Shown here: piece after piece, positions 26,586 through 39,053 of the stretch
How positions within the stretch are numbered: position 1 is the stretch's first letter
Layout of the letters: every line of letters starts with the position of its first letter
Virus record (IMG/VR): IMGVR_UViG_3300049789_000040
Coordinates: 1 to 41,014 of that record
Origin: a virus
Strand: one strand, 5' to 3'
DNA: 41,014 bases
The notes under the pieces: model-generated
Database searches by the model: none
What the model was told of the DNA's origin: nothing
The model's input: only the letters and a program-made list of their open reading frames with translations
Translations under genes and position numbers: made by a program

Positions 26586-27014
26586 CTACGCGGCCCTCTC
26601 CTCGGTCTCCAACTGGGCGAGAACCTGAGCGGTAACGTCGCCCGGAACGCGCCAGAACCCCTGCGCGCCGTTGCGGATGAGCTGCCAGAACCGCTCCTGC
26701 GCCTCCTTCGGCGCCTCCTCGTCCAGCGGGTCCCCGAGGGAGAAGAACACCCGGCGGCGCTCACCGGCCTCCGCCGCCGCCCGTGCCCACCTCGGCGGAT
26801 CCTTCCAGGCGCTCTCCGCCGCCACCGTCCGCGGCGCGCCCGGGCCCCACTCGCCCTTGACGCCCCCCATCCGGAACTTCTCGCAGACGAGGAACTCCGC
26901 GTAGCAGTTGATGCAGCCCGGATGCGTCTCGCCGTTCGGCCCCACCGCGTGCGAGCACCCGCGCCAGGGATTGAACGTGTGGTGCGTCCAGCCGATGGCG
27001 GTCTCCTTACCCAT
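26586..27014 (-). CDS. Short Gp37/Gp68-like (DUF5131) protein
   Basis: A 142-aa protein with the family signature near the N-terminus: AIGWTHHTFNPWRGC, then C and CYA (GCINCYAEF). In full-length members (about 230-350 aa) a longer C-terminal domain follows. This copy has the VFFSLGDPLDEEAP segment but then ends with GDVTAQVLAQLETEERAA, so it appears truncated or a compact version. The family has a Cys motif that suggests metal binding; its biochemical role is not established in my knowledge. ATG at 27014, 8-bp overlap with the upstream gene. Confidence 0.65.
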   Translation of the reverse strand: MGKETAIGWTHHTFNPWRGCSHAVGPNGETHPGCINCYAEFLVCEKFRMGGVKGEWGPGAPRTVAAESAWKDPPRWARAAAEAGERRRVFFSLGDPLDEEAPKEAQERFWQLIRNGAQGFWRVPGDVTAQVLAQLETEERAA

Positions 27015-27474
27015 GGGGCGCCGCCTCTCCACCCGCGCCAAGCAGCAACCGCGTACCCTTCTCCTGGGCCTCGCGGACCAGCGGCAGCAGCCTGTCCCCG
27101 AGGTGGATGCCGCCCACCACCAGGTGCGCGAGGAAGCTCTGCTCGAACGTCTCCACGCCCTGCTCGAGCGCGGTGAACTTCGCCTTGAGCACCAGCAGCA
27201 GCTGGCGCCAGCGCTCCTTCGCCTTCTGCTCCGCCCAGCCCCGCTTCTGCGCGTCGGTGGGGAAGTACCTGCCGCCGATCTTCTGCGGCGCGTCCTCGGG
27301 CTGGGGAATGGGGATGCTCATCTGCACGGCCCACCCCTTGCGCTGGAAGTAGACGATGGCCTTCCCCGGCTCGTGCATCACCCCGACGTGGCTGCACTCC
27401 GCCCGCTGCAGGAGGCGCTCAATCTCCAGGCGGCTCTGTCCCGTATCGACGCTCGTTCCCTCTGCGTAGGCCAC
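27007..27474 (-). CDS. Conserved phage protein (155 aa)
   Basis: A 155-aa protein. Pattern: MAYAEGTSVDTGQSRLEIERLLQR, IPIPQP, WRQLLLVLKAKFTALEQGVETFEQSFLAH (read as shorter pieces). I have seen this overall layout in small phage early proteins, but I do not know a function. It is the most conserved-looking of the small genes near the cytosine methyltransferase. ATG at 27474 directly follows the upstream stop. Confidence 0.6.
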   Translation of the reverse strand: MAYAEGTSVDTGQSRLEIERLLQRAECSHVGVMHEPGKAIVYFQRKGWAVQMSIPIPQPEDAPQKIGGRYFPTDAQKRGWAEQKAKERWRQLLLVLKAKFTALEQGVETFEQSFLAHLVVGGIHLGDRLLPLVREAQEKGTRLLLGAGGEAAPHG

Positions 27475-27738
27475 TCAGGCTCTCCCCTTCGTGTCGTTGT
27501 CCCCGCACCGGCAGGCGTCGATGCGCTCCTGGAGCCGGTCGGCCCTAAACCCCAGCTCCGCCACCTGGCGCGCGAGGTGGATGTTCTCCTCGAGCAGCTC
27601 GTGTTCTCGGAGCCTGGAGGCTTGGAGGCTGCTCTCCACCGACTTCACCCGGGCCTGGAGCAGGGCCAGTGAGGGCGGCGGGAGTTGGAGTTCGGCGCGA
27701 TGCCGGCGCCAGGGCCACCAGGAGAGAAGGGAAGTCAC
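27475..27738 (-). CDS. Coiled-coil small protein (87 aa)
   Basis: An 87-aa protein with a Trp-rich start (LLSWWPWRRHRAELQ) and a long helix with heptads (LLQARVKSVESSLQASRLREHELLEENIHLARQV), then CRCGDNDTKG. It starts at the ATGA overlap with the methyltransferase stop. Might be a small regulator or membrane-edge protein; function unknown. Confidence 0.5.
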   Translation of the reverse strand: MTSLLSWWPWRRHRAELQLPPPSLALLQARVKSVESSLQASRLREHELLEENIHLARQVAELGFRADRLQERIDACRCGDNDTKGRA

Positions 27739-29030
27739 GCCGCGGCGACCTCCGCCAGCTCAGGCACGTTCGCCCGAACCAGCGCCTCCGCCACCTCGGG
27801 GGGGACGCTGTTTCCAATCAGCTCGGTCTGCGCTTCCAGCGTCCGCGCCGCGCTCAAATCGTACTTCTCCGCGAACCGGCCGAACTGCCCCCGGAGTAGC
27901 TCGGGAGGGCGCAGCATGCGGAGGGTGATGTCGCAGATCTGGTAGGGCGTCCCCTGGACCGTCACCAGCCCGTGCCGTTGCTTCCCAGTGATGGTGCGGA
28001 TTGGCTCGCGGACGTCCTGCCCGGCGGTCCCATCGGAGCCATAGTAGGTGGTCAGGAAGGCGGCGACCGCGGCGAGGTGCGTGCCCTGGGCGCTCACCGT
28101 CGGCATCGGCTGCCGCGGGTCAGCCCCGGTGCACTGGCCTCGGAGCTTGATCAGCGTCGCGGCGGTGAGGGAGTGGTGGTCCCGGCCCGTGATGGTGTCG
28201 AGCGGCCGGCCATGGTTCACCTCCACCAGCCATGAGGCGACCAGCCGCGGCGGCGCCGGGACGATAAAGGGGTTGTCGCTCTCAAGGACGAAGCGACGGA
28301 GCCCCTCCGCGATTCGCCACATTGTTTTCGGGGCAAGGTGGTTCGGCTTTCCGGTCTTCGTGCGCCGCCCGAAGATGCTGCGGCCCAGATCACTCCAGTC
28401 GATGCACTCGGCCGCGGAGTGGTACGGCAAGGGGCGCCCTGGACCGTGTGTCGGCTCGGGCCAGCGAACGGGCAGGCCGTCCCGCCGCGCGACGACGAAC
28501 AATCGCTCCCGGCTGGTGGGGGCGCCGTACTCGCACGCGGCGAGCACTCGGTGCTCCACCCGGTAGCCGAGGCGCTCCAGGTCGCGCCGCCAGCGCCGGA
28601 ACGTCTCCCCCACCCGCTCCGGGATGCGGAACCCGTCTTCTCCGAGCGGTCCCCAGCCCTCGAACTCGGGAACGTTCTCGACGAAGATGATCTCCGGCCG
28701 GACGTCCTTCGCCCACCGCCTGACCACCCAGGCCAGCGAGCGGATCTCCTTGGAGCGTGGGCGCCCGCCCTTGGCGACGGAGAAGTCGCGGCAGTCCGGG
28801 GAGAACCAGGCCACCCAGACCGGGCGTCCGCCCGTTGCCTCCTTTGGGTTGACCTCCCAAATGTCCGAGATCAGGTGGCGGGTGCGCGGGTGGTTCGCCG
28901 CGTGGACCTGGAGCGCGAGCGCGCTGTGGTTGATCGCGATGTCCACGTCTCGGCCGAGAGCCGCCTCCATGCCGGTGGAGGCGCCCCCGCCGCCCGCGAA
29001 ACCATCCACGATGAGCCCGCGCCCCTCCAT
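27735..29030 (-). CDS. DNA (cytosine-5) methyltransferase
   Basis: A 431-aa protein. Motif I DGFAGGGGAS (9-18) binds SAM; the catalytic Cys is in SPDC (Cys80, where most family members have PC, so it is a PDC variant); ENV (118-120) is motif VI; PTSRERLF is motif VIII (R-x-R type); the C-terminal motif X GNSVPP is near 406-411. The region between VIII and X is the target-recognition part (about 190-380). It adds a methyl to C5 of cytosine, likely protecting phage DNA from host restriction. It is of typical length and fully open. ATG start. Confidence 0.9.
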   Translation of the reverse strand: MEGRGLIVDGFAGGGGASTGMEAALGRDVDIAINHSALALQVHAANHPRTRHLISDIWEVNPKEATGGRPVWVAWFSPDCRDFSVAKGGRPRSKEIRSLAWVVRRWAKDVRPEIIFVENVPEFEGWGPLGEDGFRIPERVGETFRRWRRDLERLGYRVEHRVLAACEYGAPTSRERLFVVARRDGLPVRWPEPTHGPGRPLPYHSAAECIDWSDLGRSIFGRRTKTGKPNHLAPKTMWRIAEGLRRFVLESDNPFIVPAPPRLVASWLVEVNHGRPLDTITGRDHHSLTAATLIKLRGQCTGADPRQPMPTVSAQGTHLAAVAAFLTTYYGSDGTAGQDVREPIRTITGKQRHGLVTVQGTPYQICDITLRMLRPPELLRGQFGRFAEKYDLSAARTLEAQTELIGNSVPPEVAEALVRANVPELAEVAAA

Positions 29031-33260: not shown

Positions 33261-33517
33261 TGGCCGCCGTGGAACCGACCCCCGGCGAAGTATGGGAGCC
33301 TCTCGATGGCATCCGCTCGGAGGAGGCGCTGGCCACGGCGCGCTTTCGCGTGCTGGAGGTCTGCAAGCGCTTCGTCTGGGTGCGCGGGCTGCGGTCCGGG
33401 CGCCGGCGGGCCATCGCCCGCGAGCGCTTCCGAGACCCGAGCCCCTACCGGACCGGCTACCGAGTGGTGGAGTCCGGGCCGGTGGACCCTCCCTCCAGCA
33501 CCGAGGACGGTCCATGA
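33260..33517 (+). CDS. Small phage protein (85 aa)
   Basis: An 85-aa protein with a GEVWEPLDG start and RFRVLEVCKRFVWVRGLRSGRRR, like small beta-rich phage proteins (PGxVW type). It starts at ATG overlapping the upstream stop (TGATG), and its stop overlaps the next start (ATGA). Function unknown. Confidence 0.55.
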   Translation: MAAVEPTPGEVWEPLDGIRSEEALATARFRVLEVCKRFVWVRGLRSGRRRAIARERFRDPSPYRTGYRVVESGPVDPPSSTEDGP

Positions 33518-34491
33518 AGTACCTGGTGCACGTCGATGGCAACCTGCCGAACTTGGCCTTGATGCGCCTGAGCACCTACTTCCGATCGCGTGGTGAGGAG
33601 GTGCGGCTAGTACGCGGCACCGGCCAGCGCCAGCTTTGGGATCCGCCCGGAGAGGTCTACGCCTCCTCCATCTTCGACTTCTCCGGCGCACGGCGCCGCG
33701 CCATCGACGCGGAGTGGAGTGCCTGGGGTCCGGTTCGCTGGGGCGGGACCGGCGTCCGGGTGGAGTCCTCCCTCGCCGATCTGGACGCGGAAGTTGATTG
33801 GGAGGCGATCGCTCCGGACTACTCGCTGTATCCCGGCGAGGAGCGCTCCATCGGCTTCACCCAGCGGGGTTGCCGGCTCCGGTGCGGCTTCTGCGTCGTT
33901 CCGCGGAAGGAGGGCGCGGCACGGTCGGTTCGAACCGTCCCGGAGATCTGGCGTGGCGAGGGGAACCCGAAAAAGCTCCTCCTCCTCGACAACGACTTCT
34001 TCGGCCAGCCCGAGTGGCGCGCGCGTGTGGAGGAGATCCGCATCGGCAGGTTCAGCGTTTGCCTGAGTCAGGGCATCAACATCAGGATGGTGAACGAGGA
34101 GTCCGCCGCCGCCCTGGCCTCCATTGAGTATCGGGACAACGATTTCGAGCGCCGTCGGCTCTACACCGCGTGGGACAACCTGGGCGACGAGAAGGTATTT
34201 CGGCGCGGCGTAGAGCTACTGGAACGTGCCGGCGTCCCGCCGCGTCACCTCATGGTCTACATGCTGGTGGGTTACGCGCCGGCAGAGACATGGGAGCGCA
34301 TCTTCCACCGCTTCAACGCGTTGGTAGCACTGGGGTGCAGGCCCTACCCAATGGTGTTCGACGGGGCTGCCCGGCCTGACCTGAAGGCCTTCCAGCGGTG
34401 GGTGGTAATGGGGCTCTATCGCTCTTGCGCCTGGCGCGACTACCGCGACGCCCGCCTTGTCGGCGTTCAGCGCGGCGAGGTCAGCCCATGA
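33514..34491 (+). CDS. Radical SAM protein
   Basis: A 325-aa protein with the radical SAM cluster motif C-x3-C-x2-C (CRLRCGFC, Cys120, 124, 127) that holds a 4Fe-4S cluster. The N-terminal 110 residues (LPNLALMRLSTYFRSRGEEVRLV) look like the cobalamin-binding-like domain found in front of some radical SAM enzymes, but a DxHxxG motif is not visible. The rest is the TIM-barrel part. It would use SAM radical chemistry, perhaps on a nucleic acid or a small molecule; the substrate is unknown. It is part of the small-gene plus block. Confidence 0.8.
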   Translation: MKYLVHVDGNLPNLALMRLSTYFRSRGEEVRLVRGTGQRQLWDPPGEVYASSIFDFSGARRRAIDAEWSAWGPVRWGGTGVRVESSLADLDAEVDWEAIAPDYSLYPGEERSIGFTQRGCRLRCGFCVVPRKEGAARSVRTVPEIWRGEGNPKKLLLLDNDFFGQPEWRARVEEIRIGRFSVCLSQGINIRMVNEESAAALASIEYRDNDFERRRLYTAWDNLGDEKVFRRGVELLERAGVPPRHLMVYMLVGYAPAETWERIFHRFNALVALGCRPYPMVFDGAARPDLKAFQRWVVMGLYRSCAWRDYRDARLVGVQRGEVSP

Positions 34492-34691
34492 GCGCTCCCG
34501 CACCCTCGGAGCCGGTTCCCGTCGGCGCCCGGCCCGGCTGGTGGTGGCGCTTGGGCGGGCGGGGCATGGTGGCCCACCGCTTCGTGGACACCGAGCCCGC
34601 CTGCGGGGAGCCGTCCGGGCCCAGGCAGTGGACGCGGGCGCCAGCGACGGCGAAGGTCTGCCCCGGGTGCCTCGGGAGGCCGATGCGGTGA
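34488..34691 (+). CDS. Small Cys protein (67 aa)
   Basis: A 67-aa protein with a WWWRLGG start region, ACG in the middle and VCPGCLG near the end (CxxC), a possible zinc site. It starts at ATG 34488 (ATGA with the radical SAM stop), stop overlaps the next GTG. Function unknown. Confidence 0.5.
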   Translation: MSAPAPSEPVPVGARPGWWWRLGGRGMVAHRFVDTEPACGEPSGPRQWTRAPATAKVCPGCLGRPMR

Positions 34692-34933
34692 GCAACTACC
34701 GCGGGCAGAAGCCGAAGCGCGTCCGCGCCGAGTCGGGCCCGTTCGTCACCTGCCCGTTCTGCGGGTACAGCGGCGTCCACATTCACAACCCCGGTCGGTG
34801 GTGCGCCGGCTGCTTCACCAAGTACGAGGTCAGCCCGAAGTGGGTGACGTTCGACCCGAACATGGGAGCCCGCAGCGAAGGTGAGGCGTGGGCCATCGCC
34901 CTCGCCAAGGTGGGCGGAGCCCGACTCGGATGA
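34688..34933 (+). CDS. Small zinc-ribbon-like protein (81 aa)
   Basis: An 81-aa protein with two CxxC-type pairs, TCPFCGYSG and WCAGCF, spaced as in zinc ribbons. GTG start at 34688 (GTGA with the previous stop); the stop overlaps the next ATG. Function unknown; may bind nucleic acid. Confidence 0.55.
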   Translation: MSNYRGQKPKRVRAESGPFVTCPFCGYSGVHIHNPGRWCAGCFTKYEVSPKWVTFDPNMGARSEGEAWAIALAKVGGARLG

Positions 34934-35130
34934 GCGCGCGAGAGGAGAAGCTGGAGCTGGCCTCGAAGCGGACGACCGCCGGACCGGCGCGGTGCACGTT
35001 GGCCCAGCTCCGCGCACGGTGGGGCTGCATCACCCGTCCGGAGAAGCTTTGGGTGGGCGCGGAGGTGGTGAAGGCGACGATGGACGGGCTGGAGGGCGTG
35101 GAGGGTGACGAGCCTCACCGGCCTGGCTGA
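34930..35130 (+). CDS. Small protein (66 aa)
   Basis: A 66-aa protein (MSAREEKLELASKRTT...), with RWGCITRPEKLWV. ATGA overlap with the upstream gene. Function unknown. Confidence 0.5.
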   Translation: MSAREEKLELASKRTTAGPARCTLAQLRARWGCITRPEKLWVGAEVVKATMDGLEGVEGDEPHRPG

Positions 35131-35166
35131 TGAGCAGGTACACCTGGAGAGAACTGGAGGAGCGAC

Positions 35167-35739
35167 GTGAGCGAGGAGCAGATTCGTTTCGGTGGTCCAG
35201 CGGAGTGCGAGGCACGGTGTTCGGAGTGCGGGCCCGAGGCGATGGTGAGGAAGGACGCGCCCGGCCTGTCCTCGCTGGAGCGCTTCATCGCGGGCCACCA
35301 CTTCAACGAGGCCATGATCGCCTTCGCAGACGACTTCGGCCAGGAGGATGCGGAGCCGAAGAAGCTCGGCATCGAGAGCTGGTACGACTGCATGCATTGC
35401 CCGACGGCATGGGTGGAGGACCTGCCCGAGCCGGATGAGGAGCAGGGCACCGAGAAGCACTACCGGGACATGAACAACGAGGAGCGCCTGGCCGCCTTCG
35501 ACGCGATGCTGGCAGAGGAGAAGCGCCGCTGCGGCGAGAACACCTCCAACCTCCGCGCCTCGCTGGTGATTGGCGTCCGCCACTTCATCCACCCCTTCGC
35601 CTACGACTCGGGCCGGGAGTTCATGCGCCGGGCGGCGGCGGCCTGCGGGGCCGCGCTGGACTCCGATGGCGTCTGGGCGCCGTGCCGGGGCGAGCTCTGG
35701 CTGCGCGAGGTGCTGGCCCAGCCGGAGGGTGGAGCATGA
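35167..35739 (+). CDS. Hypothetical protein with Cys pairs (190 aa)
   Basis: A 190-aa protein with Cys near the N-terminus (CEARCSECG), a DCMHC pair in the middle, and a helical C-terminal part. The Cys could bind zinc. GTG start at 35167 with GGAGGAG 5 bp away. Function unknown. Confidence 0.55.
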   Translation: MSEEQIRFGGPAECEARCSECGPEAMVRKDAPGLSSLERFIAGHHFNEAMIAFADDFGQEDAEPKKLGIESWYDCMHCPTAWVEDLPEPDEEQGTEKHYRDMNNEERLAAFDAMLAEEKRRCGENTSNLRASLVIGVRHFIHPFAYDSGREFMRRAAAACGAALDSDGVWAPCRGELWLREVLAQPEGGA

Positions 35740-35867
35740 ACGAGCAGCAGCGGCTGGCCTATGAGAACCCGATGGCGCTGGCTGGTGGCGCCTTGCCCCC
35801 GAAGTTCATTCGGAGCGCGCGCGTTGGGCGGTTCGGCTATTTCGTCGGGCTCTCCCTCAACAAGTGA
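35736..35867 (+). CDS. Small protein (43 aa)
   Basis: A 43-aa protein (MNEQQRLAYENPMALAGGALPPK...), ATGA overlap with the upstream stop. Function unknown. Confidence 0.45.
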   Translation: MNEQQRLAYENPMALAGGALPPKFIRSARVGRFGYFVGLSLNK

Positions 35868-35876
35868 GTGGACGCC

Positions 35877-36380
35877 ATGGGCGGCCGGCCCGTGTGGCTG
35901 GCGAGCTGCAGCGTCCGGGACCTCCGGCGGGAGGACCCCATCACCCGCGGGGCGCTCCTGGTCACGACGGACCGCTGGTCTCTCCTCGTCCGAGTGGAGG
36001 CGGAGCGCCAGTGCCGACTCGCGCTCGCCGGTGTGGGGGACGAGCTGCTCCAGCGCTGCTTTCGGATGTGCATCACCCTCTGCGTCCATCGGGCGATCAC
36101 TCCGGCGGAGGAGGCGGGCCTGCCGAGCACCTGGACCTGCGCGGCACCGCGGGACTTGGCGGGCGTGCCCTTGGAGGTCCTCTGGCAGACGCCGGCCGTC
36201 CCGCGCGTCCCCTCCGCTGAGCCCTGCCGGGCACCGCGGAAGCTCCTGGTCCACGGCCTGGAGCACCTCGGGGCGTTCATCCCCGAGGGCTGCGGGGAGT
36301 GCGACACCTGCCGGGCGCGGCTCCAGGTCCAGGCGGAGGCGATAGAGCGCTGGCGGGCCGCCGGTGAGCCGGCACCATGA
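35877..36380 (+). CDS. Cys-rich hypothetical protein (167 aa)
   Basis: A 167-aa protein with scattered Cys and a C-terminal GCGECDTCRARLQ (C-x2-C-x2-C, possible zinc). An in-frame GTG 9 bp upstream could also start it; the ATG is my choice. The stop overlaps the next ATG. Function unknown. Confidence 0.5.
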   Translation: MGGRPVWLASCSVRDLRREDPITRGALLVTTDRWSLLVRVEAERQCRLALAGVGDELLQRCFRMCITLCVHRAITPAEEAGLPSTWTCAAPRDLAGVPLEVLWQTPAVPRVPSAEPCRAPRKLLVHGLEHLGAFIPEGCGECDTCRARLQVQAEAIERWRAAGEPAP

Positions 36381-36778
36381 GGGTGGGCCTGCAGGAGCTG
36401 CGGCGGCGCGCGGTGAAGGGCCGCTGCCTCTGCTGTCCGCGGGCGGCGCGCGCCCGCGCTCTCCTCTGCGGCCTGCCCGAGTGCAATCGGCTCTACCTGC
36501 GAGCCTGGCACGTCGACAACCGGCGGGCCCATCCCGAGCGCTACGGGGACGCCTTCTACCGCGCGAAGGAGGCCGCTTCCCGCCGCCGCCACGCCGCTTG
36601 CTCGCCCTGCGCGCCCTCCAGAGCCGCTGCGCCGGCGCGACCGGCAGGCTCCCCGCCGTCGAGGGGCTACTACGTGGCGACCACCGTCCCCCTGCTGGGC
36701 AGCGGCGAGAGCTACGCCGCGTTCTGCCGGCGGGTCGAGCGCGGGTGGTTGCGGATGGAGCAGGACCGGCGAGGTTGA
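36377..36778 (+). CDS. Small Cys/His protein (133 aa)
   Basis: A 133-aa basic protein with CLCCPRAARARALLCGLPEC (read in two parts) and WHVDNRRAH: a C-x-C-C...C...C layout, possible zinc-knuckle protein. ATGA with the upstream gene; the stop abuts palindrome copy D. Function unknown. Confidence 0.55.
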   Translation: MRVGLQELRRRAVKGRCLCCPRAARARALLCGLPECNRLYLRAWHVDNRRAHPERYGDAFYRAKEAASRRRHAACSPCAPSRAAAPARPAGSPPSRGYYVATTVPLLGSGESYAAFCRRVERGWLRMEQDRRG

Positions 36779-36819: not shown

Positions 36820-38433
36820 ATGCGAGCGCTTCTGAGTTTGGCTTCACCTCCTTCTCGACGAATGGGCGGGGCCGATTGCGACCGGCCAACGGTAGTGGAA
36901 GTCCTAGGAGCCGATCCGCTCTATTATCAGGGACTCGTACATCCGCTGGCCTATATGGACTACAGCGGCACGAACAAGAAGCTCACGCGCGGATTTCGCA
37001 AACTGTTCTTGCTCCTGCCCGGGGCCGTCTACCTGGTCACGGACCCCGACCAACTCAGAGCACCCCAGCGCACGTACCGCGCCGTGCTTGACGGCCAAGT
37101 GGTGATTCTGGCGGATGCAGACGAGATCGACGCCCTTCCGGACGAGCAGCGGAGGAGCTGGTTGGCAGGGCAGCGCGCGAAGCTGGAGGCGCGGCGCAGT
37201 CCGCCGGCACCGAAGGTCCGCCGCGTGGAGGGGCGACGGACGTACCTGGGGACGGATGTGCTGACGGCCGCGCGCGAGCGCATCGCCCGTGTCTTCGACG
37301 ACTTCCCGCGCGTGTACGTGAGCTTCAGCGGCGGGAAGGACTCCACCGTGATGCTCCACCTAGTAGCGGAGGAGGCGCGGCGGCGCGGGCGTCGGTTTGG
37401 CCTCCTCTTCATCGACCTGGAGGCGCAGTACCGGCTGACCATCCAGCACCTGGAGGAGATGTTCGCGCTCTACGCCGACGTGACGGAGCCCTTCTGGGTG
37501 GCGCTCCCACTCAGCCTGCGCAATGCGGTGAGCAACATCGCGCCGAGGTGGCGCTGTTGGGACCCCGCAGCGCGAGAGATATGGGTGCGCGAGCCGCCAG
37601 CATTGGCCGTCACGAGCGGGGAGCGCTTCCCGTTCTTTTGCGAGGGCGAGGAATTCGAGGAGTTCACTCCCGACTTCGGCCACTGGTACAGCCAGGACCA
37701 GCTCACCTGCTGCCTGGTGGGCATCCGCACCGCCGAGTCGTTGAACCGCTGGCGCGCCATCGCGCGCCGCCGGGTAAGCCGCTACGACGGCCTCCCCTGG
37801 ACGAGTTGGCAGTCGCAGTCGCTCTTCAACGCCTATCCAATCTACGACTGGTCCACGGAGGACATCTGGACGTACCACGCTCGGACGGGGCTCCCCTACA
37901 ACAAGCTCTATGACCGAATGCACCAGGCCGGTCTCTCCATTCACCAGCAGCGCATTTGCCAGCCCTACGGGGACGACCAGAGGAAGGGGCTCTGGCTCTA
38001 CCAGGTGATCGAGCCGGAGACCTGGGGCCGCGTCGTGGCGCGCGTCGCCGGCGCGAACAGCGGCGCCCTCTACGCCCAGGAGAGCGGGAACATCCTCGGC
38101 CGCCTTCGCATCGCCAAGCCCGAGGGGCACACCTGGCGCAGCTTCGCCACGCTGCTGCTCGACACGATGCCCGAGCGCACCGCGGACCACTACCGCGAGA
38201 AGATTTCGGTCTTCCTCCGGTGGTGGGTCAGCAAGGGCTATCCCCAGATCCCGGACGAAGCACCGCACGGAGAAGAGGCGGCCAAGAAGGCCCCGAGCTG
38301 GCGGCGCATCTGCAAGGCGCTTCTTCGCAATGACTACTGGTGCAAGGGGCTGAGCTTCACGCAGACGAAGAGCCCCTACTATGAGAAGTACCGAAAGCAG
38401 CAGCGCGCGAGGAGTCGGGCATGGCGTCTCTGA
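36820..38433 (+). CDS. ibrA: IbrA-like PP-loop (PAPS reductase/DUF3440) protein
   Basis: A 537-aa protein. From residue 141 on it follows the DUF3440 layout: DVLTAARERIARVFD, the PP-loop SGGKDST (170-176), then YPIYDWSTEDIW, YNKLYDRM and EGHTWRSF. PP-loop proteins activate a substrate with ATP, and this family (PAPS-reductase-like) pairs with an IbrB-like ParB protein. In E. coli IbrA/IbrB act together on expression of prophage-encoded genes (known knowledge). Residues 1-140 are an extra N-terminal part with lower-GC codons that I do not recognise. Start at ATG 36820: GGAGGGG lies 7 bp before. Gene symbol by similarity of the family only. Confidence 0.75.
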   Translation: MRALLSLASPPSRRMGGADCDRPTVVEVLGADPLYYQGLVHPLAYMDYSGTNKKLTRGFRKLFLLLPGAVYLVTDPDQLRAPQRTYRAVLDGQVVILADADEIDALPDEQRRSWLAGQRAKLEARRSPPAPKVRRVEGRRTYLGTDVLTAARERIARVFDDFPRVYVSFSGGKDSTVMLHLVAEEARRRGRRFGLLFIDLEAQYRLTIQHLEEMFALYADVTEPFWVALPLSLRNAVSNIAPRWRCWDPAAREIWVREPPALAVTSGERFPFFCEGEEFEEFTPDFGHWYSQDQLTCCLVGIRTAESLNRWRAIARRRVSRYDGLPWTSWQSQSLFNAYPIYDWSTEDIWTYHARTGLPYNKLYDRMHQAGLSIHQQRICQPYGDDQRKGLWLYQVIEPETWGRVVARVAGANSGALYAQESGNILGRLRIAKPEGHTWRSFATLLLDTMPERTADHYREKISVFLRWWVSKGYPQIPDEAPHGEEAAKKAPSWRRICKALLRNDYWCKGLSFTQTKSPYYEKYRKQQRARSRAWRL

Positions 38434-39053
38434 CGGAATTGCTGGAGCAGTTGCAGCGCACCATCGCCGCCCTACCGCTGGCGGAGCGGGTGGAGGCGCT
38501 GAATCGCGCGCGGACCGCGCTCCACGAGGCGAGCCCCTTCCGCGCCGAGCCCGTGGACTTGGTGCTCTGGCTTCGCGGAGAGCAGGTAGGTGGGAACGAC
38601 TACAACCCCAACCGGGTCGCGCCACCAGAGATGGACCTTCTCCGGCGCAGCATCGAGGCAGATGGGTACACGCAACCCATCGTTGCGTACCCGCTCGATG
38701 GGTCAGACGAGGTGGTGGACGGCTTCCATCGTCATCTCGTCGGAAAGTCGCCCAGCGTTGCGGCTCGCCTCCATGGGTACCTTCCGGTGACCCGCATCCG
38801 GGCAGAGAGGGCCGACCGGGCGGATCGAATTGCGGCCACCATCCGGCACAACCGCGCGCGAGGGAAGCACGTCGTCAACGCCATGAGCGACATCGTTATG
38901 GACCTCCACCGGCGCAACTGGAGCGACGAGAAGATCGCCCGAGAGTTGGGGATGGACCCTGACGAAGTGACCCGCCTGAAGCAGATCACCGGCCTCGCCG
39001 AACTCTTCGCGGACCGGGAATTCTCCGAAGCGTGGGAGCCAGCAGGCGACTGA
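38421..39053 (+). CDS. ibrB: IbrB-like ParB-domain protein
   Basis: A 210-aa protein. The middle is a ParB N-terminal-like domain (NDYNPNRVAPPEMDLLRRSIEADGYTQPIVAYP, read in parts; then VVDGFHRHLVG), which in ParB relatives binds CTP or acts as a nuclease fold. The C-terminal part has a helix-turn-helix-like run (WSDEKIARELGMDPDEVTRLKQITG). It overlaps the IbrA-like gene by 13 bp, so the pair is made together. Likely partner of the IbrA-like protein; exact activity unknown. Confidence 0.75.
   Translation: MASLTELLEQLQRTIAALPLAERVEALNRARTALHEASPFRAEPVDLVLWLRGEQVGGNDYNPNRVAPPEMDLLRRSIEADGYTQPIVAYPLDGSDEVVDGFHRHLVGKSPSVAARLHGYLPVTRIRAERADRADRIAATIRHNRARGKHVVNAMSDIVMDLHRRNWSDEKIARELGMDPDEVTRLKQITGLAELFADREFSEAWEPAGD

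Follow-up and report, generated by a model that had tools for sequence, protein, structure and literature searches.

In E. coli, the IbrA/IbrB pair is reported to activate the eib genes of prophages. This activation is repeated as an annotation elsewhere (PMC5874904), and the chromosomal ybdNM operon is controlled by the LysR repressor CitR (PMC9068703); our survey of the literature on DUF3440, ybdN/ybdM and IbrA/IbrB found no mechanism. Of the gene pairs in phages that still lack an explanation, IbrA/IbrB is one of the commoner, and most interpretations make it 'prophage co-activators' or an enzyme of sulfur metabolism. In viromes, cysH has been called a conserved and abundant auxiliary metabolic gene (PMC9301287, PMC8725595). 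A similar partnership, of a PP-loop enzyme with a protein of the ParB superfamily, occurs in the Dnd system as DndC and DndB, DndC being described with three Fe-S cluster cysteines plus a cysteine dyad (PMC10853773). Here we compare with these systems a phage locus that contains the pair together with a third small protein.

A phage copy of the IbrA/IbrB pair

The window, that is, the whole stretch of DNA analysed, is a virus record, linear and 41,014 bases long, with a G+C content of 70%. Structural genes (terminase, portal and major head protein) occupy the minus strand in its left part, and a plus-strand block from 33.2 kb contains small genes, a radical SAM gene and then the IbrA/IbrB pair at 36820-39053. 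The features considered here are:

33514-34491, plus strand: radical SAM ORF (phrog_9298, 5e-49; weak match to Pfam Radical_SAM, 0.005)
34488-36778, plus strand: small co-directional ORFs, several with CxxC pairs, no family match
36820-38433, plus strand: X1-IbrA ORF (DUF3440 PF11922, E=1.7e-36; PAPS_reduct PF01507, 1.1e-15; phrog_2302, 2e-89)
36820-37224, plus strand: small domain, here X1, fused in frame to the IbrA N-terminus (profile match at 36862-37119, E=8e-17)
37225-38433, plus strand: IbrA proper, PP-loop (PAPS-reductase-like) and DUF3440, homologue of YbdN (phrog_2302, 5.6e-90); SGGKDS intact, ECGxH absent
38421-38433, plus strand: overlap of IbrA and IbrB, exactly 13 bp, the IbrB ATG lying within the 3' end of IbrA, which would allow coupled translation
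38421-39053, plus strand: IbrB, ParB/sulfiredoxin superfamily, homologue of YbdM (phrog_2159, ParB-like, 6e-67)

An earlier note on this DNA had described a PP-loop DUF3440 protein and a ParB-domain protein overlapping by 13 bp as an IbrA/IbrB-like pair, and our matches and coordinates agree with that description. The PF11922 score of IbrA, 126 bits, lies far above the cut-off of 25. Alignment with E. coli YbdN over 398 aa gives 46% identity for IbrA, and alignment with YbdM over 201 aa gives 58% for IbrB. IbrB contains the motifs NDYNP, DGFHR and TIRHNRARG, whose residues are invariant in 49 homologues, followed by a C-terminal region resembling a helix-turn-helix. Pfam ParB models did not match the IbrB ORF, but the ParB fold is apparent by profile, since an IbrB profile matched ParB/Noc/SbnI chains in the PDB (best 4umk, 7e-5). 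Judged by these sequence comparisons, the pair is almost certainly IbrA/IbrB of the YbdN/YbdM type. Gene order, overlapping genes, PP-loop, and DGFHR and HNRARG motifs are all shared with ybdN/ybdM, whereas the E. coli genes overlap by 28 bp instead of 13 bp, lack an X gene and are preceded by citR.

Identity as a partition ParB was rejected for IbrB: there is no adjacent parA, the flanking genes have no Pfam match and only IbrA flanks IbrB.

The pair itself is already known and common, occurring in 144 of 50,697 isolated-phage records and in more than 590 stretches of viral contigs, so the setting is less unfamiliar than the earlier note had supposed. A nucleotide search of phages with the IbrA/IbrB region gave no match, and neither tRNA nor Rfam families were found in the window.

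The radical SAM gene is not linked to IbrA/IbrB

It had also been proposed that the radical SAM enzyme, IbrA/IbrB and many zinc-knuckle proteins form one module. The radical SAM ORF at 33514 is real and lies on the same strand, and several of the small ORFs do have CxxC pairs, although none of these meets the threshold of any family, the best match being to DZR_2 at E=0.035. Joint action of the enzyme, the pair and the small Cys-rich proteins would fit their arrangement on one strand, 3-6 kb apart, in the window phage alone. Nevertheless, the proposal failed on co-occurrence, the check that had been named for it: the flanks of 80 viral-contig loci retrieved with IbrA never contained the radical SAM family, and those of 31 loci retrieved with the radical SAM protein never contained IbrA/IbrB. 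Across whole contigs, with the window itself as positive control, one of 30 IbrA contigs had a radical SAM match, a distant homologue, and IbrA appeared in 0 of 24 radical SAM contigs. We thus regard joint action as exceedingly improbable, and chance is the simplest explanation for the closeness of the genes in the window. Searching solved structures by sequence with the radical SAM protein returned nothing meaningful.

Elsewhere on the minus strand, the window encodes a C5-cytosine DNA methyltransferase at 27735-29030 (PF00145, 5.5e-23; phrog_116, 2e-84) and a DUF5131 (phage Gp37/Gp68-like) protein at 26586-27041 (PF07505, E=2e-13; 151 aa against a model of 243 positions). DUF5131 proteins are radical-SAM-like, so the phage may encode a second such protein.

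A third small protein accompanies IbrA and IbrB

Clustering of all the neighbours of IbrA in 80 loci from viral contigs, in each of which IbrB was present, yielded only two frequent families besides IbrB. We designated them X1 and X2; both are about 125 aa long and lie immediately upstream of IbrA. The earlier note had missed this partner. The next commonest neighbour family occurred in just five IbrA loci. X1 proteins share the pattern '..WVAEITG..DY..ANS.GSRGVY..YEV..P.SW...RYF..V' and X2 proteins 'WP.SC.HNLT..NR.AWLGHAACC'. Profile searches assigned X1 to 51 of the 80 loci, X2 to 22, both to none and neither to seven.

The X profiles were trained on these first 80 loci, and the independent evidence comes from reverse scans and from isolated phages. 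Scanning viral contigs with X2 alone retrieved 77 further loci. Each contained IbrA and all but one contained IbrB (76), the exception being cut by the contig end; their commonest gene order was IbrB-X2-IbrA. With X1, IbrA adjoined 34 of the 35 loci retrieved. Altogether 82 contigs were new with respect to the first scan (70 with X2 and 12 with X1). Among the 50,697 isolated-phage records, X1 was found in one and X2 in six, all of them phages with IbrA/IbrB. The linkage is therefore obligate, and X, IbrA and IbrB very probably constitute a three-part module. Using a single X1 protein as query proved too strict and retrieved the query contig only. The sole X1-like ORF without IbrA within 4 kb (L236:3950-4426) was a weak match, E=4e-8.

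Seven of the 80 viral loci and most chromosomal copies are without X1 or X2, so in some settings the pair can do without X. Where X belongs, a missing third subunit would be a concrete reason why IbrA/IbrB alone may be inactive in tests, and points to the three genes for expression. The third small protein of the cassette is apparently undescribed: the openly accessible literature, to which our search was confined, yielded no mention of the three-part cassette, of its mutually exclusive X1 and X2 versions or of the X1-IbrA fusion. Curated models account for neither X1 nor X2: Pfam matched neither, X1 as a family matched weakly a PHROG of unknown function, and a sequence search of solved structures with X1 and X2 returned nothing.

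Some loci depart from the usual layout. In phages Nebkiss and XCL1123 (L118 and L119), X2 lies downstream of IbrB, with a GIY-YIG nuclease gene between the two in Nebkiss, and the IbrB-like genes of these phages are annotated as 'ectoine synthase/ParB multidomain' or ParB-like nuclease. In L052 (7574-8008), L071 (7549-8007) and L251, which lack X1 and X2, another small ORF overlaps the start of IbrA; its products share 'WSQN..FD..EN..FI..KTR.AI' and could represent a third X family.

X1 is fused to IbrA in the window

In the window, X1 spans about 36820-37119 and forms a single ORF with IbrA, with no intervening stop, an arrangement unique to the window among 273 IbrA loci. Neither Pfam nor PHROG matched this X1 region itself. 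The ATG at 36820 is preceded by a strong Shine-Dalgarno sequence, GGAGGGG. IbrA homologues start at around residue 136-143 of the window protein, the point at which we found an in-frame GTG (37225) with AAGG 8 nt upstream. This GTG is a likely internal start for IbrA, so a separate IbrA may be made besides the fusion initiated at ATG 36820. The window X1 retains the family residues D68, R78, G79, Y92 and R105 and has lost E8 and R60; being short of two highly conserved residues, it may be decaying. Conversely, in L263 X2 is fused to IbrB, and the two fusions together suggest that X probably contacts both proteins. Another candidate X1-IbrA fusion, indicated by tblastn in L034, was ruled out, its X1 and IbrA being in different frames.

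The structure model of X1 was confident (pLDDT 94.8). Its top PDB match was 3ii2, the ORF157 nuclease of the archaeal virus AFV1 (Z 6.0 over 86 residues, rmsd 5.0, 19% identity), a Z in the range of chance resemblance; the profile-profile comparison was not significant (P=0.095). Further structural matches were 3vb8, an engineered protein, the mutant 3ild and, in BFVD, archaeal-virus proteins; Foldseek against the PDB gave no match below 0.001. The catalytic residue of ORF157 is Glu86 (PMC4187194), whose counterpart in X1, in a weak alignment, is an unconserved position. We treat a nuclease role for X1 as a suggestive lead from the modelled fold and do not claim it.

IbrA lacks the catalytic residues of PAPS reductase

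The PP-loop is kept throughout the family: residues S170, G172, K173, D174 and S175 are at least 97% conserved among 278 IbrA proteins, and GxRxxES is present in 273 of them. Conversely, the reductase cysteine is missing, because the CysH catalytic motif ECGxH was found neither in the window protein nor in any of its 278 relatives, whereas the E. coli CysH control has it. Top structural matches of the IbrA model, which is confident in the PP-loop domain and less so in the remainder, were FAD synthase (Z 16.1), ATP sulfurylase (Z 15.0) and APS/PAPS reductases (Z 14-15). From this model, we read IbrA as a putative adenylating enzyme.

Since IbrA resembles PAPS reductase by HMM and fold, it could be a CysH of the auxiliary metabolic kind, supplying assimilatory sulfate reduction in the infected cell, and virome papers interpret viral 'cysH' genes in this way (PMC9301287, PMC8725595). 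Besides lacking ECGxH, IbrA misses the NCBIfam cut-offs for CysH by far (NF002537, 35 versus 154 bits; TIGR02057, 33 versus 254), on which grounds we rejected its assignment as a PAPS reductase, and sulfate reduction gives no reason for its linkage to a ParB protein and to X. A metabolic CysH role is thus highly improbable. Likewise, the window proteins are strong members of phrog_2302 (phage PAPS reductase) and phrog_2159 (ParB-like), but the 'phosphoadenosine phosphosulfate reductase' annotation of the former is unsupported by the catalytic residues of IbrA. When the phage collection was queried with E. coli CysH, from which a divergent CysH could escape, four records matched as compared with 144 for IbrA; none of the four looked like a typical isolated phage genome, and one was a 691-kb bacterial assembly. 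IbrA-type 'cysH' genes of phages have probably been misread as sulfur auxiliary metabolic genes. Should most of the viral cysH genes prove to be IbrA, they could no longer be interpreted as sulfur genes, given that IbrA has no reductase cysteine and is linked to a predicted DNA-binding partner.

The parallel with the Dnd system raises another alternative, namely that IbrA/IbrB are a Dnd-like enzyme for DNA phosphorothioation or thiolation, with IbrA acting as DndC and IbrB as DndB. Weak PADLOC matches to DndC (6.5e-9) are in its favour, as is the classing of DndB with ParB proteins and of DndC as a PP-loop enzyme (PMC10853773). IbrA nevertheless falls below the curated DndC cut-off (TIGR03183, 26 versus 290 bits) and, unlike DndC with its three cluster cysteines and dyad, has no invariant cysteine among 235 proteins, its five common cysteines being lost in a scattered, independent fashion. 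This pattern argues against both sulfur transfer through cysteines and an Fe-S cluster common to the family. In untargeted inspection, DndA, DndD and DndE did not turn up either. A Dnd-like activity appears distinctly improbable.

A possible DNA-acting cassette

A nucleic-acid-acting role is the most plausible reading of IbrA/IbrB, and a three-part machine acting on DNA describes the cassette better than a sulfur-metabolism gene does. Because of the ParB fold of IbrB and of the SNF2 helicase upstream of IbrA in a sister clade (see below), we lean slightly towards action on DNA, while chemical modification of the DNA is doubtful; the likeness of IbrA to small-molecule adenylyltransferases (FMN adenylyltransferase) implies that its substrate need not be nucleic acid. 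Also weighing against this reading, the neighbourhood of the cassette showed neither a cysteine desulfurase nor any other donor enzyme. In the mechanism that we propose, IbrB would bind DNA through its ParB/Srx-type NTP-binding domain and helix-turn-helix, X1 or X2 would be a structural subunit or adaptor joining IbrA to IbrB or to nucleic acid, and IbrA would spend ATP to adenylate, and so activate, a group on nucleic acid or on a protein bound there. Either nucleic acid would end up modified or gene expression would be switched; an effect of the latter kind is reported for E. coli IbrAB on prophage genes. The chances are about evenly balanced that the window holds a phage copy of a widespread X, IbrA and IbrB cassette with X1 fused to IbrA and with IbrA adenylating on DNA. 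A more specific version is tentative and, taken as a whole, rather unlikely: X and the ParB-like IbrB would place IbrA on DNA, where a base or phosphate is adenylated, the genome would be protected or expression rewired, and a large share of viral 'cysH' genes would be this same system.

The main rival to adenylation is a transcriptional co-activator without DNA chemistry, made up of IbrA, IbrB and perhaps X, in which IbrB binds promoters, IbrA senses ATP, and late or lysogeny-conversion genes are switched. The sole reported phenotype of IbrAB, activation of the eib genes of E. coli prophages, and the control of ybdNM by CitR (PMC9068703) both agree with such a role, but the conserved PP-loop and substrate-pocket residues of IbrA would be superfluous for a pure sensor, and an SNF2 helicase as alternative partner points past promoter binding. 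We consider the co-activator possible, though unlikely.

Distribution and history of the cassette

In a FastTree phylogeny of 110 IbrA proteins with local support values, carriers of X1 and X2 ran through a broad phage clade, forcing at least four changes for X2. Chromosomal loci of enterobacteria, Bacteroidota and others mostly contain IbrA-IbrB only. The chromosomal IbrA of enterobacteria (ybdNM type) formed a group without X, together with E. coli phage PhiR5_2, nested in the X-bearing phage clade, which suggests that X was probably lost on domestication. The reduced-genome insect symbiont Candidatus Providencia siddallii (L311) keeps a full-length IbrA with no detectable IbrB.

In the sister clade, an SNF2-family helicase (about 480 aa, PF00176) lies directly upstream of IbrA, apparently replacing X (L120, L271, L273, L277, L278, L284, L285, L301 and L308); it is located some 0.7 kb upstream of IbrA in L272 and upstream of IbrB in L121. 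Phage AQ113 exemplifies the helicase directly upstream of IbrA, and phage FCV-1 carries the same helicase family upstream of IbrB.
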